Shown here one piece after another: positions 9,104 to 22,884 of a stretch of 31,094 nt of DNA. The notes under the pieces were generated by a model. The model made no database searches. It saw only the letters and a list, made by a program, of their open reading frames with translations, and had not been told where the DNA came from. The stretch spans positions 1 to 31,094 of the IMG/VR virus record IMGVR_UViG_3300031974_003118; one strand, given 5' to 3'. The stretch is from a virus. The position numbers and the translations under genes were made by a program. How positions within the stretch are numbered: position 1 is the stretch's first letter; every line of letters begins with the position of its first letter.

Positions 9104-9215
9104 TTTACTCTCACATTAGTTATTGATAATGACTAATATATTATACACCAATACCTATTGATTAGCCTACCCCTGCGATATTATAATCTCCACTTATTTC
9201 TCCGTTAGTTATTTT

Positions 9216-10126: not shown

Positions 10127-12190
10127 TTAATCTCTTCGGATTATTTTTACAGAAGAAGGATTATAGCCAGCAGCCCACTCTTGACCATAATACATGCGAT
10201 CATCTTCTTTCTTTTTACCAAGAGCATTTGCTACTCTACCAATCACAGCATAAGATGGATTTGGTATTTCACGATGCATTGTTCTGGCTATCATATTAGC
10301 AATAACAAGAGCAGAATAGCGGTCTTTCCTCATTCTACCCTTCTTTCCAGTCCCTAGCTTTATCTCTGGAGTGTCAAATTTCTCACGCCCTGATGCTGTT
10401 CGACTTACCATAATTGTTGATAACTCCGTCTTCAATTCCTCAATCTCCATAACAACATCTTCAAGCGTGTCATATAATTTTAATGCCGAACTATCTCCAA
10501 TCTGTTCCTTGAGTTTCTTGAATCTCATTTCGTCTGTCTTCGTCACAAGTCCTAAAGTAGCATTGTCAAATCGAGGGAATAGAATAAATCTGTCTTCCAT
10601 ATCTTTTCTAAGGCCATGATTTGCTTGTGTGGTCCATTCAGCACTTGCAAAGTTTATATACTCTAAAATATGTAAACCGGGAAGTCTATCTGTTTCTTTT
10701 TCTTTATCTTCAATAATAGGAAGAATAGCAACTTCATTTAGTGCAGGGTCCATTTTATCTGGATCACGTAAACCTTCGGCAATAGCATATCCACCACCTT
10801 GAGAGTCAAGACCTATCTTAACACAAGGGAATACCTGCATAAGATCTCTAATCTTACGAACGCAAAAACCATAATAATCATTAACTTCAGTAAGACCAAG
10901 CTTCTTCCTATTTTGGAAATCTTTTTTATTTGTGGTCCAAGAATAAACAACACGCTGATGTTCTTGATGAAGCTCCATAACTATTATTGCAAAGTTATCT
11001 ACTTCGCTAGCGGGGTCAATACCAAATATATATTTTTTATCAGAACTTCCACGAGTAACAGCATCAAAAGCAGTATCACACCAAGCAGGCCAATTATCTT
11101 TTGCTACATTCTTATCATGGGCTACACAAGACTCAATAATAGAACGCTTGAAAAAGCCCTGAGAGTCCTTTGCAAAGCACGCACCGTACTCCATGAGATA
11201 AATACCACTATGCATCGTTGCACGCGATCTAGACACCTGCTGATCGTCCATAAAGCCTTCTGGTATAAGCTCGTATGGCATCCTGATTATTGCAAATTCT
11301 CTATGATTCAATCGTCTCATATAATCTGGAATATCACTAGCCTCACCATCCTCAATCATCTTTTCTGTTTTTCCACCGCTTTTTATTGTCTTCTGATACT
11401 TACGCCAATAATCTGCATAAGGCTCAAAATCGTAACCGGCTGTACCAGATAGTATGGATTGGTTTTTATGTCTTTGGCTAAATGTTTCTTCTTGCTTTTC
11501 GGTCCATACACCAGCTTCTTTCATAGCTTTTCTTGTAGCAGCTTCTTTAACATTCCCAGCAGGATCTTTAGAAACAGCAGCAAAACCAGCGACAACTGTC
11601 TCGTAGATTTCTACAGGTATAGAGTTAAATTCGTCAGCAATAATTGTATGAGCACGAAGACCACGAATCTTGCTACCATCACCCAAAGGAACAGCTATAG
11701 TCCAACTATCATTAACCTTTAGAGTACAGCGGTCAACATCTCTTCTGGGACCGCTAGCATCACTACAGAGGCTTCTAAAGATAGGTGCGTTACGCCATAT
11801 GACATCCATGTATTCAAAGATAACTTTAGACTGTCTAAATGCAGCACCAACAATAACAATCTTAGATCCGGGTATCAACAAACATCTCAGTGTTGAATAA
11901 ACGGCTAAAAGAAATGATTTACCAAAACCACGACTAGCTATATACATAGGGAATGATTTGCTCCAAAGCTCTTGAAGAATAACAACTTGCTCTGGAAGTA
12001 AATCTATATTTAATAATTGCTTAACGGTCCAATGTAAATACTTTGGATTACGCATTATTTTTAAAACATGAAGATGGAAATTATTCTGTTCCCAGTCACC
12101 CAAATCAAGCAACGGGTTTTTTAAATCCTTAACATCTTCTTTCTTTAGCCTTAACCAAGCGTAATCATAATCTTCTACATCGTAACTCAT
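10127..12190 (-). CDS. terL: Terminase large subunit (DNA packaging ATPase/nuclease)
   Basis: 687 residues. ATPase domain: ASRGFGKS (about 85-92) is a Walker A-like loop and HTIIADEF (about 181-188) Walker B with the catalytic Glu. Nuclease domain of RNase H fold: FGIDPA (Asp ~392), KIGLDSQGGG (Asp ~462) and a late acidic KDRYSA fit the metal-binding triad. It pumps DNA into the prohead through the portal and cuts concatemers. The start at ATG 12190 overlaps the end of the upstream nuclease gene by 26 bp. Length and motif order are normal for terminases of larger phages. Confidence 0.93.
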   Translation of the reverse strand: MSYDVEDYDYAWLRLKKEDVKDLKNPLLDLGDWEQNNFHLHVLKIMRNPKYLHWTVKQLLNIDLLPEQVVILQELWSKSFPMYIASRGFGKSFLLAVYSTLRCLLIPGSKIVIVGAAFRQSKVIFEYMDVIWRNAPIFRSLCSDASGPRRDVDRCTLKVNDSWTIAVPLGDGSKIRGLRAHTIIADEFNSIPVEIYETVVAGFAAVSKDPAGNVKEAATRKAMKEAGVWTEKQEETFSQRHKNQSILSGTAGYDFEPYADYWRKYQKTIKSGGKTEKMIEDGEASDIPDYMRRLNHREFAIIRMPYELIPEGFMDDQQVSRSRATMHSGIYLMEYGACFAKDSQGFFKRSIIESCVAHDKNVAKDNWPAWCDTAFDAVTRGSSDKKYIFGIDPASEVDNFAIIVMELHQEHQRVVYSWTTNKKDFQNRKKLGLTEVNDYYGFCVRKIRDLMQVFPCVKIGLDSQGGGYAIAEGLRDPDKMDPALNEVAILPIIEDKEKETDRLPGLHILEYINFASAEWTTQANHGLRKDMEDRFILFPRFDNATLGLVTKTDEMRFKKLKEQIGDSSALKLYDTLEDVVMEIEELKTELSTIMVSRTASGREKFDTPEIKLGTGKKGRMRKDRYSALVIANMIARTMHREIPNPSYAVIGRVANALGKKKEDDRMYYGQEWAAGYNPSSVKIIRRD

Positions 12191-12650: not shown

Positions 12651-13017
12651 TGTTGTATTTCTTTATTTTATCTAGCATTTGCCATTCGAGTATTTTCATG
12701 AAAAAAGTTTCGTATTCAACTTCTTTCCCCTTAACACTGTCATGGCACTTCTTGCAAAGAGTAATGCCATTTGCTGTCACATATCTCATACCGGGATAAC
12801 TAGCCCAAGTTTTGATATGATGAATTTGTATTCTATGACGTGAACAACATCCGGGCCACTGACATTGATAATTGTCTCGCTTTTTGATATCCTCACGCCA
12901 TTTGGTATATTCTGGACTTTTATAATTCCTAGAATCTTTTGAATATGATTTTGGTGTGTTAGTTTTGTTGTATCTCTTCTTGCTGTACGGGTTGTAGCGG
13001 CGTTTCTTCTTTGCCAT
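12640..13017 (-). CDS. HNH endonuclease
   Basis: 125 residues. A very basic N-terminus (KKKRRYNPYSKKRY) is followed by the HNH fold: QCQWPGCC (Cys52, Cys57), IQIHHIKTW (His66/His67), NGITLCKKCH (Asn83, Cys88, Cys91, His92). Family knowledge: metal-dependent DNA cutting; in phages HNH proteins next to terminase often assist packaging cuts. Start ATG 13017 behind GGAGAG lies inside the 3' end of the dehydratase gene (59-bp overlap). It may also be a mobile homing-type nuclease, but the tight overlap suggests a stable member of the operon. Confidence 0.85.
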   Translation of the reverse strand: MAKKKRRYNPYSKKRYNKTNTPKSYSKDSRNYKSPEYTKWREDIKKRDNYQCQWPGCCSRHRIQIHHIKTWASYPGMRYVTANGITLCKKCHDSVKGKEVEYETFFMKILEWQMLDKIKKYNNGK

Positions 13018-14134
13018 TTATATCTCTCCGAACCATTTGAGTTACTAGATCTTTAAATGATACCTTTGGTTCCCAGTTCAATACTTCTTTTGCTTTACTG
13101 GGATTGCCTTTAAGGTACTCAACCTCTGATGGTCGATAAAATTTTGGATCAATAACAATATATGGTTCAAAGTCGTCAATACCGATTTCATTGAAAGCCT
13201 CGTTTAAAAAGTCACGAACGGAATAAGTCTTTCCTGTAGCTATAACAAGATCCTCTGGTACGTCCCTTTGTAGCATAAGCCACATAGCCTCAACGTAATC
13301 TTTTGCATGACCCCAATCGCGATAAGCATCTATATTGCCTAAGCGAAGTTTTGGAAACGACTCTTGTCTTCCAGAAGCAAAAAGAATATCTAGTTCACCA
13401 GAATCACTAAGATTCTCATGCGTTAGATTCATTTCTTTAAGCCATCTTGAGAACTCTCCAATCCATTTAGTGATCTTGCGAGTTACAAAGTTCTCGCCTC
13501 GACGCTCACTTTCATGATTGAATAAAATACCGCAACTAGCATGTAAGCCGTAGCCTTCCCTGTATATCCTAACCATATGATGAGCAGCTAATTTAGCAGC
13601 GGCATATGGACTTTGTGGCATAAAGGCTGTATCTTCGTCTTGGTATTTTTCAAATTCACAAACAGAATCAGCTTCCAAGTCATCTATAGTGATACTGCCA
13701 AGTACATTTTCCAAAGCCCTACTTGGTCGCTTTTTTTCGGTAAAGTTCTTTCCAAAAAGCTCGCTGGTAGAAGCCTGATAAAAACGTGCATCTGGACAAT
13801 ATCGACGTATAGCCTGCAAAAAATAAGTTGGCCCTAAAGCATCTACCTGAAAAGTATAGTCTGGTTGCTCAAAAGATGTCCCAACGTGAGACTGTGCTGC
13901 TAGATTATAAATCTCGTCAGGTTTATACTTATCTACAATAGAATACACCGATCCAGAATCAGAAACTTCACCTTCTACTATTTTTATTTTGTGCTTTATA
14001 TGATTAATTCTATCATAATTAGACGTACTTGACCTTCTAACAATACCTATAACATCATAACCTTTAGATAAAAGTAATTCAGCCAAGTAAGAACCATCTT
14101 GTCCGGTAATGCCAGTAATTAACGCCTTCTTCAT
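12959..14134 (-). CDS. gmd: GDP-mannose 4,6-dehydratase
   Basis: 391 residues, an extended short-chain dehydrogenase that converts GDP-mannose to GDP-4-keto-6-deoxymannose, the first step to GDP-fucose and related sugars. Visible: NADP loop GITGQDGSY (8-16), NLAAQSHVG, catalytic STSELFG (Thr123, Glu125) and Y177xxxK181 in SPYAAAK, then NHESERRGENFVTRKI and LGNIDAYRDWGHAKDY. Two insertions stand out compared with the usual enzyme: about 30 residues between SELFG and the catalytic Tyr, and about 25-30 residues before the LGNIDA motif. Ribosome site AGGAGAG lies in the preceding glycosyltransferase gene; the two are adjacent with no gap. Confidence 0.92.
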   Translation of the reverse strand: MKKALITGITGQDGSYLAELLLSKGYDVIGIVRRSSTSNYDRINHIKHKIKIVEGEVSDSGSVYSIVDKYKPDEIYNLAAQSHVGTSFEQPDYTFQVDALGPTYFLQAIRRYCPDARFYQASTSELFGKNFTEKKRPSRALENVLGSITIDDLEADSVCEFEKYQDEDTAFMPQSPYAAAKLAAHHMVRIYREGYGLHASCGILFNHESERRGENFVTRKITKWIGEFSRWLKEMNLTHENLSDSGELDILFASGRQESFPKLRLGNIDAYRDWGHAKDYVEAMWLMLQRDVPEDLVIATGKTYSVRDFLNEAFNEIGIDDFEPYIVIDPKFYRPSEVEYLKGNPSKAKEVLNWEPKVSFKDLVTQMVRRDINGKEETPLQPVQQEEIQQN

Positions 14135-15217
14135 TTACACTCTCCTTATTTCAGCTTCTCCTGAAGCTTCTAGCTCTGCTTTTGAAATTAATGAATTGTC
14201 CTGTTTAGTATTAAGTAGATCAAGAGTTTGAACTAGTACATCCAGAGCTAATTCTGAAGAACAATAATCCCGAACAAATGATTTACCTGCTTCCGCTATA
14301 TCTAACTGTGCTTGTGGGTTAGTCTCTAAGTAATTATATGCTTGTAGTAGTTCTTGTATATCTACTTCTAGGAAATGTTTATTAGGATTTAATAAAGGAT
14401 AAAACCATTCCTTCCAATTATGGCGTGGATTCCTGATTTTTAGAGGTACGCAGTTTGCACTCATCTGCCAAGGTAGTCTTGCCCAAGCACACGAATGACC
14501 ATCTACACATATCTGATACTTGTGTTTGATCTGCTCTTCTATCTCTATTTTTTGATGTTGATTAATAATAAAATCATCGGGTATATTAGGATAGGTAGTT
14601 TTTAAAGATTTTAAAATGTTGTCCCAATAGTCGTCGTCAGATTGCGGCGGTCTTAAAAGACGGCACCATGCATCATCACATTCTGCCAATTCAGATGCAA
14701 CTCTTGCCCGCATATTAATATCCATGAGTTCAGTATTGCCGGTTAGAGATCCGATGAAGCACATCTTGTTTGTTTTTGTATGAAGTGGTCCATCAAATGC
14801 TCTTACTCTGTCTACTTCCCAGTGACCAATTAGATTGTTCGGGGACGGCATTAATATATTGGTAGAGAAAGCGGTCTTGCTAAACACCAAGCATGGAATC
14901 TCTTGCAGAGGATCGTCAGAGGTATCTGAAAAGCAAACAGGTATTGTAAAATCCCAATTGTTTACAATCTCTGGATATTTCTTTCTTGCATCATCAACAT
15001 AAGCGGCAAGCAATCGCGAACGTATATTTACAATCTTTTTAGAGTCAATCAGCTCTCTGTTTTTGATTATCTGCAAATCACCACTTTTAAAGCGAACTAT
15101 TAGATCGCTAACGCCGAGCTTATAATTATTAACTATATAGTCGGTGCTGAAATTTTTAAAGCTTGCTGTTTCATCCTCGATTAGCCGATATATCTCATCG
15201 GACACTATCTTAGTCAT
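14135..15217 (-). CDS. Glycosyltransferase, GT90/CAP10-like
   Basis: 360 residues. The C-terminal half matches the lipopolysaccharide-modifying GT90/CAP10 pattern: CFIGSLTGN (about 155-163), a motif R-RV-SELAE, then KYQICVDGHSCAWARLPWQM with the conserved D-G, S-R and L pattern, VPLKI, and WYPLLNP-like FYPLLNPNKHF. Known relatives transfer xylose or glucose to proteins or polysaccharides. Together with the adjacent dehydratase it could attach a deoxy sugar to virion protein, DNA-linked groups or host envelope (inference). The ATG overlaps the preceding stop by 8 bp. No signal peptide or membrane segment is visible, so it is cytoplasmic. Confidence 0.75.
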   Translation of the reverse strand: MTKIVSDEIYRLIEDETASFKNFSTDYIVNNYKLGVSDLIVRFKSGDLQIIKNRELIDSKKIVNIRSRLLAAYVDDARKKYPEIVNNWDFTIPVCFSDTSDDPLQEIPCLVFSKTAFSTNILMPSPNNLIGHWEVDRVRAFDGPLHTKTNKMCFIGSLTGNTELMDINMRARVASELAECDDAWCRLLRPPQSDDDYWDNILKSLKTTYPNIPDDFIINQHQKIEIEEQIKHKYQICVDGHSCAWARLPWQMSANCVPLKIRNPRHNWKEWFYPLLNPNKHFLEVDIQELLQAYNYLETNPQAQLDIAEAGKSFVRDYCSSELALDVLVQTLDLLNTKQDNSLISKAELEASGEAEIRRV

Positions 15218-16022
15218 CTGTATCCCCTATAACTGTATCTGAGTTGAGTAATGGTTGATCTACTTCACCATCTTCGTATTCATGGAAGTCGGATAGCCTT
15301 GCTCTAGCTTTATCGGCAGCAATCGCTTGAACCGCCATATCAAACCCTTCTGCTTCGCGGGCTTCCAAATTATCTAGTTCGCGCATCCACATACTAAAGT
15401 TAGTTTTAGCGTCGTCGGCTACACGTTTTCTTTGCTCTCTTGTTCCTTTAAGATCTTTTAGGTATCTTTCCTTTTTTGTTAGAAGCTTTTCATGTTCATT
15501 AATGTATGAACCTTTGCTTCCAATAAGCGCACCTAGCTGTGTTTGAAACATGGCTATTGCCTGAGTGTCTTGCATATCTTCTGGTTTGTTCATCTCTGTA
15601 TCAATGGCTTCATTGAGACGTTCAATGTTTTCCATGATTTCTTGACGATCTTCCATTGACCTGTTGATTAGAACTTCAGTCCTAATAACTTCTAGAATTT
15701 GCATTTCCTCGGTATGAGTAACGTCTTCGTTGAACTGTTTAAAGAAGTCAATCCAGTTTTGCTCGAAGAATATGATTTCAGCATCACTCATTTGCTTATT
15801 AAGCTCTGCGTGATAATAACGAGCACGTAAAGTAGATAACAAGTGTTCATCATCAGTTGTATCTCGTGCTTTAAGATTTTTCTTGTCGATGTATTTTTTT
15901 ACCGGACCTATGTGGCGGTTTAGATGATCTGCCATCTCCTGCAAGGAGAGATCGAAGCAGTTCTGTTCTATATAGGCCATTTCTTCGTTTGATAGCTTAC
16001 CTCTTTTCCTGCTCAATGCCAT
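15210..16022 (-). CDS. HTH plus coiled-coil protein, possible small terminase
   Basis: 270 residues. Residues ~8-50 (LSNEEMAYIEQNCFDLSLQE...ADHLNRHIGPVKKYI) form a helix-turn-helix resembling the small HTH protein at 16862. The rest is long charged helices (about 60-235) with an acidic tail ending VIGDTDD. DNA-binding head plus oligomerising coiled coil, encoded upstream of terminase, is the layout of small terminase subunits, but intervening sugar genes make this tentative. Start choice is uncertain: AGGAG stands only 1 nt before ATG 16022 but 7 nt before an in-frame TTG at 16016. The 3' end overlaps the glycosyltransferase start. Confidence 0.6.
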   Translation of the reverse strand: MALSRKRGKLSNEEMAYIEQNCFDLSLQEMADHLNRHIGPVKKYIDKKNLKARDTTDDEHLLSTLRARYYHAELNKQMSDAEIIFFEQNWIDFFKQFNEDVTHTEEMQILEVIRTEVLINRSMEDRQEIMENIERLNEAIDTEMNKPEDMQDTQAIAMFQTQLGALIGSKGSYINEHEKLLTKKERYLKDLKGTREQRKRVADDAKTNFSMWMRELDNLEAREAEGFDMAVQAIAADKARARLSDFHEYEDGEVDQPLLNSDTVIGDTDD

Positions 16023-16629
16023 GCTCCTTTAAAATTTCTGTAACTTTTTCTAGAAGTGTTATTTTCTTTTGTTTTGATAGTTTTAGTTTATTGAAGAATC
16101 TTATCCAATCTTCGCGAAGCGAAATGGGAATGTTTTGGTCTACAATCTTAAACACCTCTTTAGAGAATAGCTTATCTTCCATAGAGATATTATAATAGAC
16201 TTCTGTTTTTGCGTCAGATCCTTGATTGCTTGCTAGGTTCTTTTTTGTTTGATTTCTATTTAGCCAGCGGAAATAGTATTCACATTCTCTAACTTCTGAA
16301 AATGCTTGACATACTCCGTCAACATATGCTTTTAGCGGACAAGATGTACATGGCAGTTCTGGACGAGCATAATTGTCTCTTTTAAAGTTGTGTAGTCGGT
16401 TCCTAGCATGAACCCATAAAAAACTGTCTAGCGAATTGCCTTTGTCTGCGTTAAATTTCTCAAGTATTGTTATGCCGTTTTTGTCTGGCTTTAATATTTC
16501 TAGAAATACCTGTTGTCGCATATCTTCAATTTCATGATAACCAAACCGAAATTTGCTGGCGAGCTTTGCAGAAATTGTTTGAATGATTTCTACTACTTGC
16601 TCTTCAGTATAACCGTCTGGTACTTTCAT
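15997..16629 (-). CDS. Sigma-70-like factor with Cys cluster
   Basis: 210 residues. Residues ~28-85 read like sigma region 2: YHEIEDMRQQVFLEIL, then FNADKGNSLDSFLWVHARNRLHNF-KRDN, the RNA-polymerase-binding and -10-melting part of ECF-type factors. A Cys cluster follows immediately (Cys94, Cys97, Cys107, Cys116), perhaps zinc binding, which is unusual. The C-terminal ~45 residues are helical and could hold a weak region-4 HTH. Likely role (inference): phage sigma that redirects host polymerase to late genes. The start ATG 16629 overlaps the previous TGA (ATGA) with GGAGGG before it. Confidence 0.65.
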   Translation of the reverse strand: MKVPDGYTEEQVVEIIQTISAKLASKFRFGYHEIEDMRQQVFLEILKPDKNGITILEKFNADKGNSLDSFLWVHARNRLHNFKRDNYARPELPCTSCPLKAYVDGVCQAFSEVRECEYYFRWLNRNQTKKNLASNQGSDAKTEVYYNISMEDKLFSKEVFKIVDQNIPISLREDWIRFFNKLKLSKQKKITLLEKVTEILKEHGIEQEKR

Positions 16630-16778
16630 TCGTTACCCTCCTTTGGTGGCTGTCCTGATGCAGCAGATAAAGTAGAAAGAATGTCAGCTATATTAGGATC
16701 TGGAGATTGGGAAGCTTTTGCTCTTTGGATCTCAGCCTCAATTTCTTCAGAGAGTTCTTTAGATGGTTCAATTTTCAT
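16626..16778 (-). CDS. Small acidic protein, first gene of leftward operon
   Basis: 50 residues (MKIEPSKELSEEIEAEI...), unknown. The start at ATG 16778 is chosen because TTTTGGAG stands 9 nt before it; a longer in-frame start would extend into the promoter region. An N-terminal amphipathic helix and a polar tail are visible. Its TGA overlaps the ATG of the sigma-like gene, so the two are translationally coupled and may act together; an anti-sigma or chaperone role is only speculation. Confidence 0.65.
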   Translation of the reverse strand: MKIEPSKELSEEIEAEIQRAKASQSPDPNIADILSTLSAASGQPPKEGNE

Positions 16779-16807
16779 AATTTTTTGTCTCCAAAAGTTG
16801 TCGTTAG

Positions 16808-16822
16808 ATACTACAATAGTAT
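16808..16822. promoter_or_regulatory. Palindromic operator candidate in divergent gap
   Basis: ATACTA-CAA-TAGTAT is a perfect 6-bp inverted repeat in the 83-bp gap between the leftward operon and the rightward HTH gene. It overlaps the only AT-rich -10-like sequences there in both directions, so a dimeric regulator bound here could control both. No TTGACA box is seen in this gap. Confidence 0.45.
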
Positions 16823-16861
16823 ATACACAGATGACCACTTTTTTTGGGAGAAATTGATATT

Positions 16862-17065
16862 ATGAATGTAAAGTGGACAGAAGCAGATAAAGCTTTTGTT
16901 AAGGAAAATGCTCATTCTCTAAAGGATCAGGAGATTGCAAATGCTCTTTCTGAAAGAACGGGGCGCAAGGTTAGTCTTGAAGCTGTAAGGAAAATGCGTC
17001 AGAAACTTGGCATTAAAAAGAAGTGCGGTCGTGGTATCTGTGGGCTTGTAGACCGTGAAAAATAA
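16862..17065 (+). CDS. Small helix-turn-helix DNA-binding protein
   Basis: 67 residues. WTEADKAFVKENAHSLKDQE followed by IANALSERTGRKVSLEAVRK is a Myb/SANT-like or resolvase-type HTH, and the basic tail ends KKCGRGICG. The ATG at 16862 is preceded by GGGAG (11 nt); an in-frame TTG at 16844 is rejected as part of that site. The word AAAGTGGTC stands on both sides of the gene (minus strand at ~16834-16842, plus strand at ~17066 and ~17107), making self-regulation plausible. The N-terminal HTH of the 15210-16022 protein is similar. Likely a switch between the two transcription directions (inference). Confidence 0.7.
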   Translation: MNVKWTEADKAFVKENAHSLKDQEIANALSERTGRKVSLEAVRKMRQKLGIKKKCGRGICGLVDREK

Positions 17066-17511
17066 AGTGGTCGTTTGAATTATAGTGCGGCCAGATTTTC
17101 TTTATAAAAGTGGTCGTTTAAAGAAGGGGTAGTTGAGTTTGTGAGGACCACCCCCGGCTTTTTAGGGCAAAATTTACACCATTAGCCAAATTGTAAAAAC
17201 CCACCCATTCAATTCGCATCCCGTTCGCCCGTTCGCCCGTTCGCATCCCGTTCGCCCGTTCGCATCCCGTTCGCATCCCGTTCGTTTTCCACGTTTTTGT
17301 CGAATTGTGCAAAAACTAAATGTCCATTTCGACCCAAAATCTTAAAATCCAAAAAGTTTTTATCCCGTAATTTACGGTGTTTTTGAACAAAATTTCGTTT
17401 TTGGAATATTTTGGTGATTGCCAAACTTGACTTGGACGATACAATTAGGGCATCGAAGCAACAACGCTTCAAACGAAACTTTTTCTTTTTCTCTTTTTGG
17501 AGTCTTTTGAC
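17066..17511 (+). other. Gap: operator-like words, tandem repeat, no gene
   Basis: 446 bp. It holds two AAAGTGGTCG words (17066, 17107), a GC-rich tandem repeat (17213-17288), and a polypyrimidine run with TTTTTGGAG (17494-17502) that is the ribosome site of the next gene. Leftward open frames across the repeat are treated as artefacts because they have no ribosome site. No sigma70 promoter matching those further right was found, so the genes that follow may be expressed from an unrecognised promoter. Confidence 0.6.
17213..17288. repeat. Tandem 8/11-bp repeat
   Basis: Seven units of two forms, TTCGCATCCCG (11 bp) and TTCGCCCG (8 bp), in the order 11-8-8-11-8-11-11, ending in TTCG. The two forms differ by an ATC insertion. 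GC-rich in contrast to the AT-rich surroundings; such arrays are prone to length change by slippage. Confidence 0.85.
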
Positions 17512-17706
17512 ATGTACGATTGGAACACCATCGACGAAATTTTCGACGCTGTATTCGGTTGCGAAATGGAAATTCACGGTACTGTGAATCCCGCAATCGT
17601 TCCACCATCCGGCACCATCGAAATCATCTCCGATGATATGGAAGTGGCTCAAATCGAAGTGGCTCTTGACGGACAAGTGATCGCCTTCGACTACTACTGT
17701 GCCTAA
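17512..17706 (+). CDS. Small acidic protein, unknown
   Basis: 64 residues (MYDWNTIDEIFDAVFGCEME...), not recognised. ATG 17512 is used with TTTTTGGAGT 8 nt upstream. It contains a likely beta-rich stretch (TIEIISDDMEVAQIEVAL). First of four small genes at 17512-18475 that share C-ending codons, higher GC than their neighbours, the same TTTTTGGAGT ribosome site and the same hairpin repeat in each gap, so they look like one family of cassette genes, perhaps acquired together. Confidence 0.7.
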   Translation: MYDWNTIDEIFDAVFGCEMEIHGTVNPAIVPPSGTIEIISDDMEVAQIEVALDGQVIAFDYYCA

Positions 17707-17710
17707 TCCC

Positions 17711-17764
17711 CTGACCGGCACCCATCGGGTGCCAGCGAGTTTTTACCCTGCCCCTTCGGGGGCA
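17711..17764 (+). repeat. Intercistronic double hairpin, copy 1
   Basis: CTGACCGGCACC-CATC-GGGTGCC hairpin followed by AGCGAGTTTTT, then a second hairpin TGCCCCTTCGGGGGCA (17749-17764, UUCG-type loop). T-runs after the first stem resemble a terminator, but the next ribosome site follows within 20 nt. Could protect mRNA ends or reduce read-through. Confidence 0.75.
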
Positions 17765-17786
17765 CATCCCCTTTTTGGAGTTTCAA

Positions 17787-17927
17787 ATGTCAATTAAATT
17801 CATTAACATCAACACGGGCGAAACAAAAACAATCACCCGTTCATCACACGACTACTTCGCACCGGAATGGATCGAAGTGGTAGCCCGCGAAGTTCCAGCC
17901 ATCGACGGATGGCGATTTGCCGAGTAA
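17787..17927 (+). CDS. Small protein, unknown
   Basis: 46 residues (MSIKFININTGETKTITRSS...AIDGWRFAE), not recognised. ATG 17787 follows TTTTTGGAG by 7 nt. Its codon use and ribosome site match its neighbours. A hairpin element of the CTGACCGGCACC type lies on both sides, which supports it as a separate cistron. Confidence 0.65.
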   Translation: MSIKFININTGETKTITRSSHDYFAPEWIEVVAREVPAIDGWRFAE

Positions 17928-17931
17928 ACCC

Positions 17932-17964
17932 CTGACCGGCACCGAACGGGTGCCAGCGAGTTTT
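17932..17964 (+). repeat. Intercistronic hairpin, copy 2
   Basis: CTGACCGGCACC-GAAC-GGGTGCC followed by AGCGAGTTTT. The stem is identical to copies 1 and 3, while the loop differs (CATC, GAAC, AAAC), so the structure rather than the loop is conserved. The second UUCG hairpin is absent here. Confidence 0.75.
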
Positions 17965-17984
17965 CCCCTTTTGGAGTTTTTACG

Positions 17985-18164
17985 ATGGACGATTTCAACA
18001 CTACACTACAATGCGACGATTTCATCACCGGCGATGATTTTCAACAGTGGGTCGCCCACTGTGAGTGGGTCGAATCCCAAAAAGATGACGATGACCGTCA
18101 TTGGGATGACGTTCGGGAGTCGGTTCAATCCGAATGGGCTGACAACCAACCACTACCGTGGTAA
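17985..18164 (+). CDS. Small very acidic protein, unknown
   Basis: 59 residues (MDDFNTTLQCDDFITGDDF...NQPLPW), not recognised. Rich in Asp and Trp; KDDDDRHWDD near residue 37 is strongly acidic. ATG 17985 follows TTTTGGAG by 9 nt. Small acidic phage proteins of this kind often mimic DNA or bind host enzymes, but nothing specific can be claimed. Confidence 0.65.
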   Translation: MDDFNTTLQCDDFITGDDFQQWVAHCEWVESQKDDDDRHWDDVRESVQSEWADNQPLPW

Positions 18165-18168
18165 TACC

Positions 18169-18222
18169 CTGACCGGCACCAAACGGGTGCCAGCGAGTTT
18201 TTAACCTGCCCCTTCGGGGGCA
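18169..18222 (+). repeat. Intercistronic double hairpin, copy 3
   Basis: CTGACCGGCACC-AAAC-GGGTGCC, AGCGAGTTTTT, then TGCCCCTTCGGGGGCA (18207-18222), nearly identical to copy 1. The next ribosome site TTTTTGGAG starts about 8 nt after the second hairpin. Confidence 0.75.
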
Positions 18223-18244
18223 CACCCCTTTTTGGAGTTTTAAC

Positions 18245-18475
18245 ATGTTCAAACTAACCTTCACCACTGTCGAGTCTTTTGGTCGCGAATACTTCAACGA
18301 TACCGTTGTCACATTCGGCAAATCACCAAAACAGTGTTACCAAAAGATGCGTGGTGTAAACCACGGTCAGCGTATTCACAACGGCGGTCATCCCGATGGG
18401 ATTGGCGGTACGCCCGTACTGTGCTGTGAACGTCTGGAAAAGGATGGAAAAGTCCTCAAAGAAATCTGGGACTAG
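18245..18475 (+). CDS. Small protein, unknown
   Basis: 76 residues (MFKLTFTTVESFGREYF...KVLKEIWD), not recognised. N-terminal beta strands, then a basic stretch SPKQCYQKMRGV and a Gly/His-rich loop HNGGHPDGIGG. ATG 18245 follows TTTTTGGAG by 8 nt. Last gene of the GC-richer cassette; a hairpin follows the stop codon. Confidence 0.7.
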   Translation: MFKLTFTTVESFGREYFNDTVVTFGKSPKQCYQKMRGVNHGQRIHNGGHPDGIGGTPVLCCERLEKDGKVLKEIWD

Positions 18476-18481
18476 GGTTGA

Positions 18482-18520
18482 CCTAGAATGGGAATGTCAC
18501 ACCCGTTCTAGGTTGTTATG
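18482..18520 (+). terminator. Strong hairpin after small-gene cassette
   Basis: CCTAGAATGGG pairs with CCCGTTCTAGG (11 bp with one G-T pair, 9-nt loop) followed by TTGTTATG. The T-run is weak, so it may be a transcript-end stabiliser or operator rather than a true intrinsic terminator. Confidence 0.5.
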
Positions 18521-18622
18521 ATTTAGCACGCGAGTTAGCACGTGACTTTATTATATAGCACGCGAGTTACCAACTGTAACACCCGTTATAGGTTGTTATG
18601 ATTTAGCACGCGAGTTAGCACG
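18495..18622 (+). repeat. ~47-bp direct duplication
   Basis: The block beginning TGTCACACCCGTTCTAGG (18495) recurs as TGTAACACCCGTTATAGG (18575), each continuing TTGTTATGATT and then TAGCACGCGAGTTAGCACG. Offset is 80 bp. Few differences remain, so the duplication is recent or selected. Confidence 0.75.
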
Positions 18623-18630
18623 CAAGTTTT
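18524..18630 (+). repeat. Short repeat cluster A, TAGCACGCGAGTT
   Basis: Five copies in the same direction: 18524-18536, 18536-18549 (variant TAGCACGTGACTTT), 18556-18568, 18604-18616 and 18616-18630 (TAGCACGCAAGTTTT). Adjacent copies share their boundary T. Related clusters are at 22189 and 27773. Iteron-like or regulator-binding sites are possible. Confidence 0.7.
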
Positions 18631-18685
18631 CAACGTCTCCCGCGCCGAGACGTAAACCCTTGTCAGTAAAGGACTTACGACGATT
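18631..18685 (+). repeat. Bipartite hairpin element, copy 1
   Basis: CGTCTC...GAGACG hairpin followed by CGTAA-AC-CCTT...AAGG-AC-TTACG and GACGATT. The second hairpin is the family core: two stems separated by an AC/AC internal loop. It lies between a gene and the next promoter (-35 at 18720). Confidence 0.8.
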
Positions 18686-18719
18686 ATCTAAAAAATATAA
18701 TTTTATTGTGGATTTCCTA

Positions 18720-18749
18720 TTGACACCTGCCGATGATATATAGTAGAAA
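18720..18749 (+). promoter_or_regulatory. Promoter, TTGACA / TAGAAA (weak -10)
   Basis: TTGACA, then a spacer with GCCGATG, and a poor -10 (TAGAAA with an 18-bp spacer). The gene's ribosome site AGGAG lies right at the -10, so a start at the expected distance would leave almost no leader. Confidence 0.45.
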
Positions 18750-18762
18750 AGGAGATTCTAGC

Positions 18763-18885
18763 ATGAATGAATTATATGATGAGTTGGGTATGGTCGCTGG
18801 CACGTTGTCAATACTAATTGTGGGACATTCTTTCATTTTAGGCATATTAATTGTGGCTTGGTATATATATAAATATTTCTGTTAA
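18763..18885 (+). CDS. Small single-pass membrane protein
   Basis: 40 residues. A short polar N-terminus (MNELYDELGMV) is followed by one hydrophobic segment (about 11-35, LSILIVGHSFILGILIVAWY) and the tail YKYFC. ATG 18763 follows AAGGAG by 7 nt. Unknown function; such tiny membrane proteins are common in phage early regions and may affect the host envelope or superinfection. Confidence 0.6.
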   Translation: MNELYDELGMVAGTLSILIVGHSFILGILIVAWYIYKYFC

Positions 18886-18911
18886 AATTGCAGAATTAGG
18901 GTACAGAGGGG

Positions 18912-18939
18912 TTGACTTTTGTGCCGATTTATGTATAAT
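18912..18939 (+). promoter_or_regulatory. Promoter, TTGACT-N16-TATAAT
   Basis: TTGACT and TATAAT with a 16-bp spacer containing GCCGATT. Drives the unit beginning at 18981. Confidence 0.75.
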
Positions 18940-18980
18940 AGAGGCATAAGAGGAAACGACACTCCAACAAAGGAAACACA

Positions 18981-19130
18981 ATGCAAATCCTCGACACAAA
19001 CAACCACGGCGACTACCGCCTAGTCCGTCACCACGGCAAACTAACTATCCGCACCAAAGCGGGTTCCATCCTCGTTCAGGGGAAATCAACCTACGTTCTC
19101 TCAAAGTGGAGAATTTTCAAAAACACTTAG
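18981..19130 (+). CDS. Small basic protein, unknown
   Basis: 49 residues (MQILDTNNHGDYRLVRHHG...WRIFKNT), not recognised. Beta-rich and basic (KLTIRTKAGSILVQGKSTYV), compatible with a small nucleic-acid-binding fold, but unproven. ATG 18981 follows AAAGGAAACACA. First gene after the promoter at 18912. Confidence 0.65.
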   Translation: MQILDTNNHGDYRLVRHHGKLTIRTKAGSILVQGKSTYVLSKWRIFKNT

Positions 19131-19195
19131 TATTCGTGACCTAACGTGTCACACCCTTACCCGATAATAATAACATGACAACAAGGAATAACATC

Positions 19196-19447
19196 ATGAA
19201 AAAGTTTAACATCACATACATCTCACCCCTCAACGGTCGTCAAGTTATGGAACTAGACGTAAACGCTAACCGCCTATTTGACCGCGATGGTGAAACGTGG
19301 TTCAAGTACGACGACGACATCGGATGGTACAATCCAGAAAGCGGTGAAGAAGAATTCCGAGTGTGCGAAGTAATCACCGCTACCCTTTGCACCGACACAC
19401 AAGCAAAGGCAGCATACATGGAACGATTCGGAACCGCTAGCGAATAA
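19196..19447 (+). CDS. Small acidic protein, unknown
   Basis: 83 residues (MKKFNITYISPLNGRQVMEL...ERFGTASE), not recognised. ATG 19196 is preferred over an ATG at 19175 because AAGGA stands 10 nt before it. An acidic middle (DRDGETWFKYDDDIGWYNPE) and a helical C-terminus are visible. Preceded by a GTGAC-CTAACGT-GTCAC palindrome at 19136-19152. Confidence 0.7.
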   Translation: MKKFNITYISPLNGRQVMELDVNANRLFDRDGETWFKYDDDIGWYNPESGEEEFRVCEVITATLCTDTQAKAAYMERFGTASE

Positions 19448-19457
19448 GGAATAAATT

Positions 19458-19628
19458 ATGAAAGTATTTCCAAAATCTTGTAAGTTCACCTTCCGCACCT
19501 TGGAACGTGGAAAGACCTTCAACGAATCAATCGTTGGAATCTACCGCAAAAACACTACCCAACTATTGTGGAAGGGTAAGCGTAAAGACTCCAATGAAGC
19601 AGTAGAAAATCTAACCAAAGGTAAATAA
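19458..19628 (+). CDS. Small basic protein, unknown
   Basis: 56 residues (MKVFPKSCKFTFRTLERGKT...ENLTKGK), not recognised. Rich in Lys and Arg with a predicted beta N-terminus. ATG 19458 follows AAGGA by 7 nt and the gene lies 10 bp after its neighbour, so they form one transcript. Confidence 0.65.
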   Translation: MKVFPKSCKFTFRTLERGKTFNESIVGIYRKNTTQLLWKGKRKDSNEAVENLTKGK

Positions 19629-19760
19629 ATGTTATACAAACTAATTGAATTAATGATTGATGAATTGGTACGTGTTCGCATGGGCATGAACTCGGAAGAA
19701 TTTAAGCGTGACATACAGGACGCAATTAATTCTCTGAAAAAAATAAAAAGATATTTTTAG
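19629..19760 (+). CDS. Small helical protein, unknown
   Basis: 43 residues (MLYKLIELMIDELVRVRMG...KKIKRYF), not recognised. Amphipathic helix throughout. The ATG follows the previous TAA with no gap, indicating coupled translation. Last gene before hairpin element copy 2. Confidence 0.6.
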   Translation: MLYKLIELMIDELVRVRMGMNSEEFKRDIQDAINSLKKIKRYF

Positions 19761-19777
19761 TTTTCCCTATTGACAAA

Positions 19778-19838
19778 CCCCCTAGCGGGGCGCGCGACGT
19801 TGACGTAAACCCTTACCAGATAAGGACTTACGACGATT
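19778..19838 (+). repeat. Bipartite hairpin element, copy 2
   Basis: CCCCCTAGCGGGG hairpin, linker GCGCGACGTTGA, then CGTAA-AC-CCTTA...TAAGG-AC-TTACG and GACGATT. It follows the last gene of the unit and precedes the promoter at 19873. Confidence 0.85.
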
Positions 19839-19872
19839 CCGAGAAAATTTCTATTTTGGGCTGGATTCCCTA

Positions 19873-19901
19873 TTGACAACTACCGATATATAAAGTATAA
19901 A
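19873..19901 (+). promoter_or_regulatory. Promoter, TTGACA-N17-TATAAA
   Basis: The spacer holds ACCGATA. The AGGAG ribosome site overlaps the end of the -10, so a start at the usual distance (~19908) would leave only ~6 nt of leader before ATG 19914. Confidence 0.6.
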
Positions 19902-19913
19902 GGAGAAATTGCT

Positions 19914-19994
19914 ATGTTAGAAATCATGATGTATTTGTGCGGTGGAATGACAATTTTATTTTCTACTTTAATTGTAATTGATGCCGGAATTTGA
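19914..19994 (+). CDS. Tiny membrane peptide
   Basis: 26 residues (MLEIMMYLCGGMTILFSTLI...DAGI), almost entirely hydrophobic, one membrane span. AGGAG is 8 nt upstream. The arrangement of promoter, ribosome site and tiny membrane protein repeats that at 18720-18885. Unknown role. Confidence 0.5.
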   Translation: MLEIMMYLCGGMTILFSTLIVIDAGI

Positions 19995-20044
19995 CCTAAT
20001 GTGTCACTTGTATGTGCGATACTTATACTAAAGGAGATTTGATT

Positions 20045-20236
20045 ATGAGTGAGAAAAGAGCTTTCTTATTGATTTTTGTTGCTTGGGTTCTTGGCTTGGT
20101 TGCTTGTGGTGGTTGTGCATCACCGCATCGGGCAGAGGCTAATAGGGTAAGCTACCAACTGCAAACCCGCTGCCCTGATATTTGGGATGAACAACCAAAA
20201 CAAGAAGTTTCTGTAAAAATAGAATTTAGACGATAA
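20045..20236 (+). CDS. Small predicted lipoprotein
   Basis: 63 residues. MSEKRAFLLIFVAWVLGLVA precedes Cys21; LVAC is a lipobox, so signal peptidase II would leave a lipid-anchored ~43-residue mature protein (about half polar, ending SVKIEFRR). ATG 20045 follows AAAGGAG by 8 nt and is preferred over an upstream ATG at 20012. Phage lipoproteins of this size include Rz1-type spanins and superinfection-exclusion proteins; no lysis genes are near, so exclusion is slightly more likely (inference). Confidence 0.65.
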   Translation: MSEKRAFLLIFVAWVLGLVACGGCASPHRAEANRVSYQLQTRCPDIWDEQPKQEVSVKIEFRR

Positions 20237-20242
20237 TCTCTC

Positions 20243-20270
20243 TTGACAATTTCAATCCCTATGGTATAAT
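20243..20270 (+). promoter_or_regulatory. Promoter, TTGACA-N16-TATAAT
   Basis: TTGACA, 16-bp spacer ending CTATGG (extended -10 TGG), TATAAT. The CGATA word is degenerate here (TCAAT). Confidence 0.8.
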
Positions 20271-20298
20271 GGGGACATACAACACACGAAAGGAAAAA

Positions 20299-20721
20299 AT
20301 GCTAGATTCAACTAAACCTTACTGCGGAATGGGAAACATCCAAAACCTTGACAAGTTCATGCGTGAACTGTTCATGGAAGATTTGATTCTTGAAAATCGT
20401 ATGCTTCCAGTTGAATTTCACGACAACCGATCCGGCGAGCGTACCCTTGCAAGGCTCAATGAGCTATGCGATACCCGCGATGGAATCACAGAACACGTTA
20501 AACTGAAGGCTCTAAAGGCTCGTAATATTGAGAAGCTAGCCGCCCAAGTTGAAGCAAAGACCATCCGAAACGCTTGCGGTGATTTTGTTGATCTTGACAG
20601 TGAGCTAGATTACAGCGATAATGAGATGGATGAGCCAGCACAGCATAGGGCTATGATGGCTCTCGTGGGTGGTATGGTAAATGGCGGATTGATTGATGCA
20701 GAGGACTTGACAGATGAGTGA
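20299..20721 (+). CDS. Helical protein of unknown function
   Basis: 140 residues (MLDSTKPYCGMGNIQNLDKF...IDAEDLTDE), not recognised. The start is placed at ATG 20299 (AAAGGA 6 nt upstream) because the ATG at 20269 lies inside the -10 box. Mostly alpha-helical, with a Lys/Ala-rich helix around 85-105 and an acidic stretch DLDSELDYSDNEMDE, then a hydrophobic AMMALVGGMVNGG near the end. Its stop overlaps the next start (ATGAGTGA). Confidence 0.7.
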   Translation: MLDSTKPYCGMGNIQNLDKFMRELFMEDLILENRMLPVEFHDNRSGERTLARLNELCDTRDGITEHVKLKALKARNIEKLAAQVEAKTIRNACGDFVDLDSELDYSDNEMDEPAQHRAMMALVGGMVNGGLIDAEDLTDE

Positions 20722-20818
20722 TTTACATGGTAATTTATTGATTGTAGTATTTGCTTATTGGTGCCTTTGGTTCGTTGCTGCTGGATTCGCTAATTTACTA
20801 GGAAGGAAGAAAAAATGA
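20714..20818 (+). CDS. Tiny single-pass membrane protein
   Basis: 34 residues (MSDLHGNLLIVVFAYWCLWF...GRKKK): one hydrophobic span and a positive tail, giving an N-out, C-in orientation by the positive-inside rule. It overlaps both neighbours (8 bp upstream, ATGA downstream), which supports it as a real coupled gene despite its size. Confidence 0.6.
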   Translation: MSDLHGNLLIVVFAYWCLWFVAAGFANLLGRKKK

Positions 20819-21054
20819 ACTTGGATAGATATTACCTAATGATGGAACGCGCACTGACCGGAACCGTTTTAACTGTGCCGGTTCCTCATTACATTGGTCA
20901 AAAACTGAATGTGCTTGATCCAGAAGAAGATGATGATGCAGAAGAAATCAGTAAAGTTTTTAATAGACTGCAAAGATGGATGAATAGAGAATTTGCAGGA
21001 TTTGATGGTGTTCGGTTGATGATTGAAGAAGAATATTTACAAGAAACTGAATAA
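20815..21054 (+). CDS. Small acidic protein, unknown
   Basis: 79 residues (MNLDRYYLMMERALTGTVLT...EEEYLQETE), not recognised. An N-terminal helix, a short strand VLTVPVPHYIG, an acidic linker DPEEDDDAEE and a C-terminal helix with RLQRWMNREFAGFDG. ATG overlaps the preceding TGA and AGGAAGGAAG precedes it. Confidence 0.7.
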   Translation: MNLDRYYLMMERALTGTVLTVPVPHYIGQKLNVLDPEEDDDAEEISKVFNRLQRWMNREFAGFDGVRLMIEEEYLQETE

Positions 21055-21067
21055 TTGCTCTTGACAA

Positions 21068-21128
21068 CCCCCTAGCGGGGCGGGCGACGGAGACGTAAAC
21101 CCTTACTGTGTAACGACTTACGACGATT
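21068..21128 (+). repeat. Bipartite hairpin element, copy 3
   Basis: CCCCTAGCGGGG hairpin, linker CGGGCGACGGAGA, then CGTAA-AC-CCTTAC-TGT-GTAACG-AC-TTACG. One inner pair is lost (C-C). An A-tract follows and then the promoter at 21162. Confidence 0.85.
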
Positions 21129-21161
21129 CAGAAAAAAGTTTTTATTTTATTAAGTTTGCTC

Positions 21162-21189
21162 TTGACAACGCCGATAATTATTGTATAAT
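21162..21189 (+). promoter_or_regulatory. Promoter, TTGACA-N16-TATAAT
   Basis: Perfect -35 and -10 hexamers; the spacer begins ACGCCGATA, one of the clearest examples of the shared spacer word. Confidence 0.85.
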
Positions 21190-21228
21190 GAAAGAGTAAC
21201 ACACACGACACCTTTGAGGAGATTTGAG

Positions 21229-21456
21229 ATGGCTTTTCAAGTTGAATTCACCGACCGCGATGGCGACACCTGCTGGGCTGATTTTTCTGACCTTTTCATG
21301 GCTCAGGAATACATTGAGGGCAAAGGCGGTGAGATTGTATCGTGGGAAGAATTTTCCGACGATGAGGACGAAGGGCAGCCCGACGAATACACCGAGTGGC
21401 AGGACTACATGGGTGGAGACGATTGGGATCACGGGCAATTCGACGAAATTTACTAG
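21229..21456 (+). CDS. Small very acidic protein, unknown
   Basis: 75 residues (MAFQVEFTDRDGDTCWADFS...HGQFDEIY), not recognised. ATG 21229 follows GAGGAG by 9 nt; an upstream ATG at 21181 is inside the promoter. About a third of residues are Asp or Glu, and the C-terminal half is strongly acidic with Trp and Tyr. A DNA-mimic or enzyme-inhibitor role is possible but unsupported beyond composition. It is alone in its unit. Confidence 0.7.
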   Translation: MAFQVEFTDRDGDTCWADFSDLFMAQEYIEGKGGEIVSWEEFSDDEDEGQPDEYTEWQDYMGGDDWDHGQFDEIY

Positions 21457-21464
21457 AATAGGTA

Positions 21465-21492
21465 TTGACTTTTAGGATAGTTATGTTATAAT
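21465..21492 (+). promoter_or_regulatory. Promoter, TTGACT-N16-TATAAT
   Basis: The spacer has AGGATA in place of CGATA. Begins 8 bp after the previous stop with no hairpin element between. Confidence 0.8.
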
Positions 21493-21531
21493 GGTGGCAT
21501 AACAAGTTTCAACCCCTTTTGGAGAATCGAA

Positions 21532-21729
21532 ATGGACGATCAATCACTTGCTTATCTTTACGACGAATACGCTGCGGCTCGTGCCGAGCAATACACTCCA
21601 AGCCCAGAAGATTGGGCTGAATATCACGCTTACCTCGAAAGCGTTGAACTTGGCGACGACGACGTTGCCGAGTACGATGCTGACAGTGAGCGTGGATTTC
21701 AAAATCTTGACAATGATTTTTGTTTTTAG
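21532..21729 (+). CDS. Small acidic protein, unknown
   Basis: 65 residues (MDDQSLAYLYDEYAAARAEQ...QNLDNDFCF), not recognised. Helical, rich in Asp, Glu, Ala and Tyr. ATG 21532 follows TTTTGGAG by 7 nt. Single-gene unit between its own promoter and hairpin element copy 4. Similar in size and charge to the preceding protein, but the sequences do not align obviously. Confidence 0.7.
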   Translation: MDDQSLAYLYDEYAAARAEQYTPSPEDWAEYHAYLESVELGDDDVAEYDADSERGFQNLDNDFCF

Positions 21730-21741
21730 GGGTTGACAAGA

Positions 21742-21800
21742 CCCCTAGCGGGGCGGGCGACGGCGACGTAAACCCTTACTACGTAAGGACTTACGACAAT
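21742..21800 (+). repeat. Bipartite hairpin element, copy 4 (best formed)
   Basis: CCCCTAGCGGGG hairpin, linker CGGGCGACGGCGA, then CGTAA-AC-CCTTAC-TAC-GTAAGG-AC-TTACG: both stems pair perfectly around a 2x2 AC/AC internal loop and a 3-nt tip. Confidence 0.9.
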
Positions 21801-21824
21801 TTAAGAAAAAGCTAAAGATACCTA

Positions 21825-21852
21825 TTGACTTTGACGATATAGATTGTATAAT
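21825..21852 (+). promoter_or_regulatory. Promoter, TTGACT-N16-TATAAT
   Basis: The spacer starts TTGACGATA. Drives the single gene at 21896, which ends in a strong terminator. Confidence 0.85.
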
Positions 21853-21895
21853 TGAAGTGTAACAAGTTTTAACTCATTCCAAAAAGGAAAAGAAA

Positions 21896-22099
21896 ATGAA
21901 AGTGATCGCTGATCCAAGTCATGTCATCGTTGACAATAGAATTGAATTTGAATATAATGGTAAAGTTAGATCGGGAAAAGTCGAGCGAGTTGGTAAAACC
22001 TTCTTGACCATCAAGCATGATGATCCAGCCAGCTTTAATAATAAAGTTTACTCGACGTATCAATTCAAGCGAATCAGCTCCAAGATATTGGCTCATTAG
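21896..22099 (+). CDS. Small beta-rich protein, unknown
   Basis: 67 residues (MKVIADPSHVIVDNRIEFEY...RISSKILAH), not recognised. The alternation of strands (RIEFEYNGKVRSGKVERVGK then TFLTIKHDD) suggests an SH3-like barrel, a fold common in small phage regulators. ATG 21896 follows AAAAGGAAAAG. Monocistronic, between the promoter at 21825 and the terminator at 22115. Confidence 0.7.
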   Translation: MKVIADPSHVIVDNRIEFEYNGKVRSGKVERVGKTFLTIKHDDPASFNNKVYSTYQFKRISSKILAH

Positions 22100-22114
22100 T
22101 TTTCTTTGTTAGTT

Positions 22115-22149
22115 CCCCCGCTAGTTTAATTGCTGGCGGGGGTTTTTTT
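22115..22149 (+). terminator. Strong intrinsic terminator
   Basis: CCCCCGC(TAG...CTG)GCGGGGG stem followed by seven T. The strongest terminator in the window. Confidence 0.92.
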
Positions 22150-22188
22150 GTTTTACCCTAACTAGGTTAGGTAATGCATGGCAGAAAG

Positions 22189-22218
22189 TAGCACGCAAGT
22201 TTTAAGCACGCGAGTTTT
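22189..22218 (+). repeat. Short repeat cluster B
   Basis: Two adjacent copies, TAGCACGCAAGTTTT (22189-22203) and AAGCACGCGAGTTTT (22204-22218), just upstream of the promoter at 22243. A small CCTAAC-TAG-GTTAGG palindrome precedes them. Confidence 0.7.
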
Positions 22219-22242
22219 ATCAAAATAATTAAAGATGCCCCA

Positions 22243-22270
22243 TTGACTTTGACGATACCTATGGTATAAT
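22243..22270 (+). promoter_or_regulatory. Promoter, TTGACT-N16-TATAAT
   Basis: The spacer starts TTGACGATA and ends CTATGG (extended -10). Likely serves the four overlapping genes 22305-23307. Confidence 0.85.
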
Positions 22271-22304
22271 AAGGTAGTAAGAGAGACACACAAGGGAGAA
22301 AATG

Positions 22305-22730: not shown

Positions 22731-22731
22731 A

Positions 22732-22884
22732 ATGGTAAGTATAGTTTGGAAACAACAACAAAAAAAATGGATTGTAACAGATAAGCGTGGAACTGAATTT
22801 TTATTTAGTTCATTAACAGACGCTAGAAATTGGATGGACTACCTAGAAAACCTAGAAAAGAGAAGGCTTAAATATGTGCGGTAA
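22732..22884 (+). CDS. Small basic protein, unknown
   Basis: 50 residues (MVSIVWKQQQKKWIVTDKRG...KRRLKYVR), not recognised. Start ATG 22732 lies 1 bp after the preceding TAA with no clear ribosome site, so it is probably translated by coupling. Two strands then a helix ending in a basic tail. Confidence 0.6.
   Translation: MVSIVWKQQQKKWIVTDKRGTEFLFSSLTDARNWMDYLENLEKRRLKYVR

Follow-up and report, generated by a model that had tools for sequence, protein, structure and literature searches.

We suggest that a 210-aa protein, encoded on the minus strand at 15997-16629 of a 31,094-nt stretch of viral DNA (IMG/VR record IMGVR_UViG_3300031974_003118, positions 1-31,094; the whole stretch is called the window below), is a phage late factor of the sigma-70 family, which would read GTGTAT promoters lacking a −35 box and would carry a structural Cys4 site, most likely for zinc. 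We hold this account to be probable, its rating having been lowered slightly for the mild excess of GTGTAT outside the late gene block. At the level of sequence, our comparisons showed that the protein has a sigma region 2 and four invariant cysteines, that its gene opens the late block, and that sigma70 sites in this block occur about as often as by chance while GTGTAT is well above chance. In the proposed mechanism, region 2 would dock on the core RNA polymerase of the host and the factor would open late promoters with the core GTGTAT; the C-terminal domain, perhaps sigma4-like, may hold the flap, and the four cysteines would form the metal site within a knuckle-hairpin-helix module that would occupy the place of sigma region 3 in the sigma2-sigma4 linker.

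Sigma region 2 and the cysteine module

The open reading frame (ORF) starts with ATG and was counted as a real gene, since 9 of the 10 related loci returned by a first scan of viral contigs (duplicates among them) align nearly full length to its product at 36-71% identity. An alignment-seeded scan of IMG/VR located relatives, confirmed by tblastn, at 477 places, and the cysteines were inspected in the 80 best of these, which were retained; 82 loci correspond to 70 distinct proteins, with many near-duplicates. When distant members were used for scanning, 80 loci out of at least 377 relatives were kept, representing 54 distinct proteins (the distant loci). Conservation counts refer to a 53-row alignment of members of the Cys4 protein. 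A search for cultured relatives by tblastn of the window, L005 and L088 proteins against 50,697 phage records returned none at E 1, and the window protein had no match in plasmids; among genome contigs, none matched the single window protein and the alignment query led to two contigs of metagenome-assembled genomes.

The original prediction, made from the sequence of the window alone, had described sigma region 2 features followed by an inserted cysteine cluster. The region 2 part is borne out both by profiles and by the fold of the first 88 residues. PF04542 (Sigma70_r2) scores the window protein at E 0.0014 and 18.8 bits (curated cut-off, 24 bits) and matches 50/53 members at E 0.1 or better (best 3e-7), some relatives exceeding the cut-off, e.g. 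with 32.8 bits; at the same E threshold, the NCBIfam profile sigma70-ECF TIGR02937 matches 48/53 members and phrog_1740, ‘RNA polymerase sigma factor’, matches 44/53. Weak Pfam matches to 3H, DUF6558, TNFR_c6, Zn_ribbon_PADR1 and others were each confined to at most 6/53 members and were dropped. The comparison with AlphaFold2 (AF2) models, which had been proposed as a check, was also favorable: in the model of the 210-aa protein (predicted local distance difference test score, pLDDT, 85; predicted template modeling score 0.53), sigma-like helices are present at residues 9-26, 34-46 and 67-85 of region 2 (residues 1-88; 16366-16629, minus strand), and residues 2-88 superpose by VIA-align on the N-terminal domain of SigE (8b3z_A; Z 8.5, 2.5 Å, 77 residues). 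Whole-length alignments to sigma factors reached similar scores with root-mean-square deviations of 12-18 Å, and thus say little about the parts beyond region 2. Upon Foldseek comparison with PDB, the first 32 rows were sigma factors or models containing them, all at E 0.098 or worse, and the named top rows in BFVD were mostly phage sigma factors (best E 0.011). A region 2 relative without the cysteine cluster at L010:4457-5197 matches residues 15-87 only.

The cysteine cluster was confirmed as it had been stated. It reads C94-x2-C97-x9-C107-x8-C116 in the window protein, and the module of residues 94-116 (16282-16350, minus strand) is predicted to form a short β hairpin, which was present both in the full-length model and in a separate model of residues 88-210. 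All four cysteines are invariant in 53/53 aligned members and the pattern C-x2-C-x13-C-x8-C is present in 80/80 distant loci, which argues against chance; the C1-x2-C2 and C3-x8-C4 spacings are constant in 53/53, and the loop between C2 and C3 ranges from 7 to 15 residues. The cluster was found in 9/10 loci of the first scan, the exception being L010, and L075 and L084 keep all four cysteines without the aromatic residue that follows the fourth one in the other 68 of the 70 distinct proteins. The word ‘inserted’ was fair as well, since the site of the module is the linker between sigma2 and sigma4, which is only short in the other sigma factor of these phages.

In knuckle-hairpin-helix metal sites, a CxxC knuckle is combined with a hairpin ending in the third cysteine, and the fourth cysteine stands at the start of a helix. 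The modeled Cys4 arrangement appears to resemble such a site, and from its sequence we consider the linker module to be probably zinc-binding. To our knowledge, this four-Cys feature has not been reported for any described phage sigma factor; among the papers listed in searches of open-licence PMC literature, none was on a phage sigma factor with such a Cys4 site, and profile comparison of the module alone with PDB gave no convincing relative. Alternatively, in line with the sensing of redox state or metal that the original prediction had considered, the four cysteines could act as a regulatory switch, i.e. an Fe-S cluster or a reversible thiol or metal site through which redox state or metal would set late transcription, as in CorE-type sigma factors. 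The cysteines here are in the same linker as the CXC of the CorE type, which is essential for activity together with a Cys-rich C-terminal domain (PMC8999054). However, beyond the four linker cysteines no alignment column has Cys in more than 9/53 rows, so that a second, C-terminal Cys-rich domain was not found, and the strict conservation of the cysteines with two fixed spacings would suit a permanent, structural metal site no less than a switch. We regard the switch as unlikely.

Following the module, the model has a helix at residues 117-133 (16231-16281, minus strand), in which R125 is invariant and W122, N126 and K129 are nearly so, a low-confidence stretch at residues 134-147, and a three-helix domain at residues 150-202 (16024-16182, minus strand), which is perhaps sigma region 4-like, a weak likeness. 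The separate model of residues 88-210 reached a pLDDT of only 74. Among 14 compared chains, the best for the C-terminal part was AlgU residues 114-190 (Z 4.3, 4.6 Å, 62 aligned residues), and a PDB profile search with the C-terminal domain gave no sigma factor among its matches and no convincing relative. The assignment of region 2 is secure, and that of region 4 is plausible only.

The GTGTAT element of the late block

Promoters were sought in gaps of 35 nt or longer upstream of genes, using ORFs from a home-made caller. The gaps were labeled late (the block opened by the sigma gene), middle (the opposite block) or early (the right arm), and these labels rest on strand and position. Homologous gaps were merged into gene families via BLASTP, and the chance values given in brackets come from first-order resampling rather than from an exact shuffle. 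The survey covered seven contigs at first and then eleven (the window and ten relatives); the motif was derived on the seven, and G006, G009, G011, G012 and G014-G017 joined later. G010 was left out because the ORF caller gave no sigma there, and four distant records unused before in the promoter survey served as the held-out set. Because the gap sequence ends at the preceding gene, which leaves late gaps a little shorter than early ones on average, the counts were redone with fixed 100- and 150-nt windows, which gave the same outcome.

Strict sigma70 sites were found in 50/171 early gaps (chance 4.9), 1/78 middle gaps (1.3) and 2/97 late gaps (1.9) of the eleven contigs, both late sites being outside the window, and fixed 100-nt windows gave 52/171 (2.8), 1/78 (1.0) and 3/97 (2.1), respectively. 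The long motif GTGTATATAATATTRTA, tried as a late promoter, matched only 10 places in 7/12 records with at most two mismatches; these were too few, and a de novo motif search was used instead. Expectation-maximization on late gaps led to a motif around GGTGTAT, and on middle gaps it gave only ribosome-binding-site-like or low-complexity motifs. GTGTAT itself is present in 32/97 late gaps, which represent 18/46 gene families (chance 3.4, maximum 8; reverse strand 3/97), and outside the late block in 6/78 middle gaps (2.0, maximum 6) and 10/171 early gaps (6.4); in fixed 100-nt windows the late and middle counts were 28/97 (3.1) and 5/78 (1.8). The held-out records carry GTGTAT in 16/47 late gaps and 7/24 families (chance 1.2, none on the reverse strand), in 0/14 middle gaps and in 3/63 early gaps (2.6), and sigma70 sites in 21/63 early gaps. 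The distance to the start codon is 40-63 nt for 21/32 late sites and 15/16 held-out sites, and a TTGACA-like box (at most one mismatch, at the right distance) accompanies 2/32 late GTGTAT sites, whereas 34/57 early TATAAT sites have one. One late GTGTAT element in the window (9143-9148, minus strand) is located 45 nt before the putative portal gene.

It had been claimed that the head operon has no visible sigma70 promoters and that the sigma-like protein could recognize a different late promoter. The first claim holds for the window, whose late gaps have no such site, and the eleven contigs stay at the chance level, but it does not fully extend to the held-out records (see below). As for the second, the proposed search upstream of late genes did reveal a shared −35-less element, and we infer that the Cys4 protein is its reader from its location and from the cases of G009 and G012.

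These two cases bear on the possibility that the late factor is another sigma of these phages. A second, ordinary sigma of 148 aa, resembling extracytoplasmic function (ECF) factors, is encoded in the middle block at L097:12935-13381 (plus strand), with homologues in G002, G003, G005, G007 and G010; further, longer sigma factors were noted in G002 (260 aa) and G011 (243 aa). If the 148-aa protein served the late block, the Cys4 protein would be its partner or would have another duty such as packaging. Its Pfam score is far better (E 3e-11 to 3e-14), and it is present by tblastn in 6/9 nearer records searched. However, tblastn finds none in 11/17 records (some of them fragments), and G009 and G012 are among these 11; in these two PF04542 finds the Cys4 protein only, and they keep GTGTAT in 9/20 late gaps (chance 0.6). 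Moreover, the gene of the second sigma is in the other block, where G.GTATAAT is found in 7/73 gaps (0.3; early gaps, 4/105, 0.3) and GTGTAT only weakly, in 6/73 (1.9). We find it quite improbable that the 148-aa sigma is the late factor.

Several observations weigh against a Cys4 late factor that reads GTGTAT. On the side of the protein, the window sequence alone falls under the Pfam cut-off for region 2, no Foldseek match in PDB or BFVD falls below E 0.001, the sigma4 likeness of the C-terminal domain is weak, and the window's clade has the ordinary 148-aa sigma, as G002 and G011 have a longer one. On the side of the promoter, GTGTAT is mildly raised in early fixed 100-nt windows (13/171; 4.2, maximum 8) and in the middle gaps of the nearer group, where 1/200 resamplings reached the observed count, and about two thirds of late gaps are without it. 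Counted over the whole window it is at chance (13; 13.8), so there is no enrichment within the window alone and the case rests on the relatives. Of the 47 held-out late gaps, 5 have a sigma70 site (30 resamplings gave 1.6 by chance and at most 4), so that the late block of these records is not entirely devoid of them.

The module could have a more direct part in promoter recognition: together with the conserved W-x2-R-N-x2-K helix that follows, it might replace sigma region 3 in function as a metal-based element and read the GTG directly upstream of a −10-like TAT. We consider this extension possible though doubtful. We know of no metal-dependent promoter-recognition element in other sigma factors, and if the module does replace region 3, it would bear on how small a part of a sigma factor suffices for locating and melting a promoter. 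More generally, we propose a switch for the late genes, together with their promoter element, for a large lineage of phages to which the searched collections contain no cultured relative, and both are testable in vitro without the phage.

The sigma operon and its neighbors

The sigma gene opens a block with a helix-turn-helix (HTH) protein, a GDP-mannose dehydratase, nucleases, terminase and portal. A short ORF of 50 aa (16626-16778, minus strand) comes first in the operon, and its stop overlaps the start codon of the sigma gene; the end of the sigma gene is overlapped by the gene of the 270-aa HTH protein (15210-16022, minus strand), which has a D5-like regulator profile (phrog_323, matching 18/20 members at E 0.1 or better, best 1e-7). 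For the latter protein, which ends in a conserved YHEYEDG-x-VDQPLL-like tail, a role as regulator or as small terminase is conceivable. On the same strand are the terminase large subunit of the block (10127-12190; phrog_7579, 2.6e-7; phrog_38, 3.6e-7), for which the best rows are Bacillus phages, at ∼25% identity across two thirds of the protein, the putative portal protein (6959-9103), named by its position and without a family match, and the major head protein (3868-4878; phrog_2522, E 3e-6). A small protein that we read as HTH-like, without a Pfam match, is encoded divergently at 16862-17065 (plus strand).

Gene order was assessed by tblastn of window proteins against 85 loci, duplicates included, which end at different points. 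The sigma gene was found in 84 (not in L010), the 270-aa HTH protein in 84, the dehydratase in 83, HNH in 80, the ERCC4 nuclease in 79, terminase in 79, the divergent small protein in 67 and portal in 50. For presence rather than order, 2.5-kb flanks of the 80 distant loci contain the HTH protein in 80, the dehydratase in 78 and the divergent small protein in 35. In the 126-kb relative G001, a one-strand block extends from the sigma gene to 62.8 kb, ∼53 kb in length. The window has its GDP-mannose dehydratase and a family-90 glycosyltransferase within the late block at 12959-15217, and the glycosyltransferase is present in 20/85 loci.

Upstream of the sigma operon, the window's clade has a conserved GTGTATATACTATTGTA-like site; in the window, the promoter-like GTGTATATACTATTGTA is at 16812-16828 (minus strand), with GTGTAT at 16823-16828. 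AAAAGTKGTC-like boxes adjoin this promoter in many relatives, and in the window they flank the divergent promoter on both strands (16793-16802, plus; 16833-16842, minus). Two further boxes, one with a mismatch, are on the plus strand at and after the end of the 73-aa gene (17063-17115); the boxes are perhaps operator sites. For the distant clade, a sigma70 site was found within 450 nt upstream of the sigma gene in 34/55 distinct, partly near-duplicate regions (chance 6.2), and GTGTAT at the chance level (5; 4.0). Four loci of intermediate distance, L066, L072, L083 and L084, have GTGTAT without a sigma70 site; both elements occur in L008 and L093. With such a host-type promoter, as a cascade requires, the factor of the distant clade could at first be produced by the polymerase of the host and afterwards act on the late genes.

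The boxes and the HTH proteins raise the question of whether GTGTAT is read by host sigma70 together with the 270-aa or the 73-aa protein, with the Cys4 protein acting elsewhere. The D5-like profile of the 270-aa protein, which accompanies the sigma gene, and the position of the boxes beside the sigma-operon promoter are in line with this arrangement. However, the boxes were not seen in the gap sequence before the other listed GTGTAT sites, a sequence that in many cases stops at the end of the gap, and a region 2 protein would be expected to have its own promoter. We judge host sigma70 with an HTH partner to be a very unlikely reader, and keep the Cys4 protein as the preferred one.

In the early region of the window (18476-26215), several promoters in gaps before plus-strand ORFs share the spacer CGATA (TTGAC..CGATA..TATAAT), with GTAAACCCTTA...GGACTTACGAC or GCACGCGAGTTTT stretches nearby. 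At 17703-18248, between small early ORFs, a G+C-rich, internally symmetrical repeat of 41 nt occurs three times, and two of the copies extend to 87 nt.

Comparison with known systems

Like phiKZ gp68 and AR9 gp226, which are placed like sigma (PMC7618050), the Cys4 protein would be a phage promoter-specificity factor; those two belong to a phage-encoded polymerase. Such a polymerase was rejected here, with RNA polymerase β′ (PF00623) in 0/13 related records. A parallel to gp68 for zinc was also dropped, since the zinc site of the phiKZ non-virion RNA polymerase is in the β′-like GP55 and not in GP68 (PMC7618050).

The cysteines in the sigma2-sigma4 linker recall the ECF sigma factors CorE and CorE2 of Myxococcus, where the linker CXC and the C-terminal Cys-rich domain are relevant for function (PMC8999054). 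Unlike CorE (ECF44/238), a bacterial metal-response factor, the Cys4 protein has four linker cysteines and no C-terminal Cys-rich domain. With ECF sigma factors in general (TIGR02937, SigE, SigW, AlgU) it shares the region 2 profile and fold and, in the model, the two-domain layout, but it differs from them in a linker of ∼60 residues with the Cys4 module, in a barely recognizable region 4 and in late sites that mostly lack a −35 box.

The closest functional parallel may be T4 gp55, whose late promoters combine a −10-like element with the lack of a conserved −35 (PMC7892883). The profile match to gp55 is weak (probability 13%, E 0.002, 44 columns of region 2 only), for which reason the Cys4 protein was not assigned to the gp55 family, and phrog_234, ‘late sigma transcription factor’, matches 2/53 members (best 0.0046). 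The gp45-type clamp PF09116 was found in 0/12 related records, with T4 positive, where the records may be fragments and a clamp-binding motif was not sought; the clamp domain PF02767 was found in 0/13 records, which may likewise be fragments, and a host clamp is possible. Nevertheless, both systems have a phage factor based on region 2 and late sites without a −35 box, here as a sequence pattern only, and the best reading by analogy is that the Cys4 protein would work like T4 gp55.
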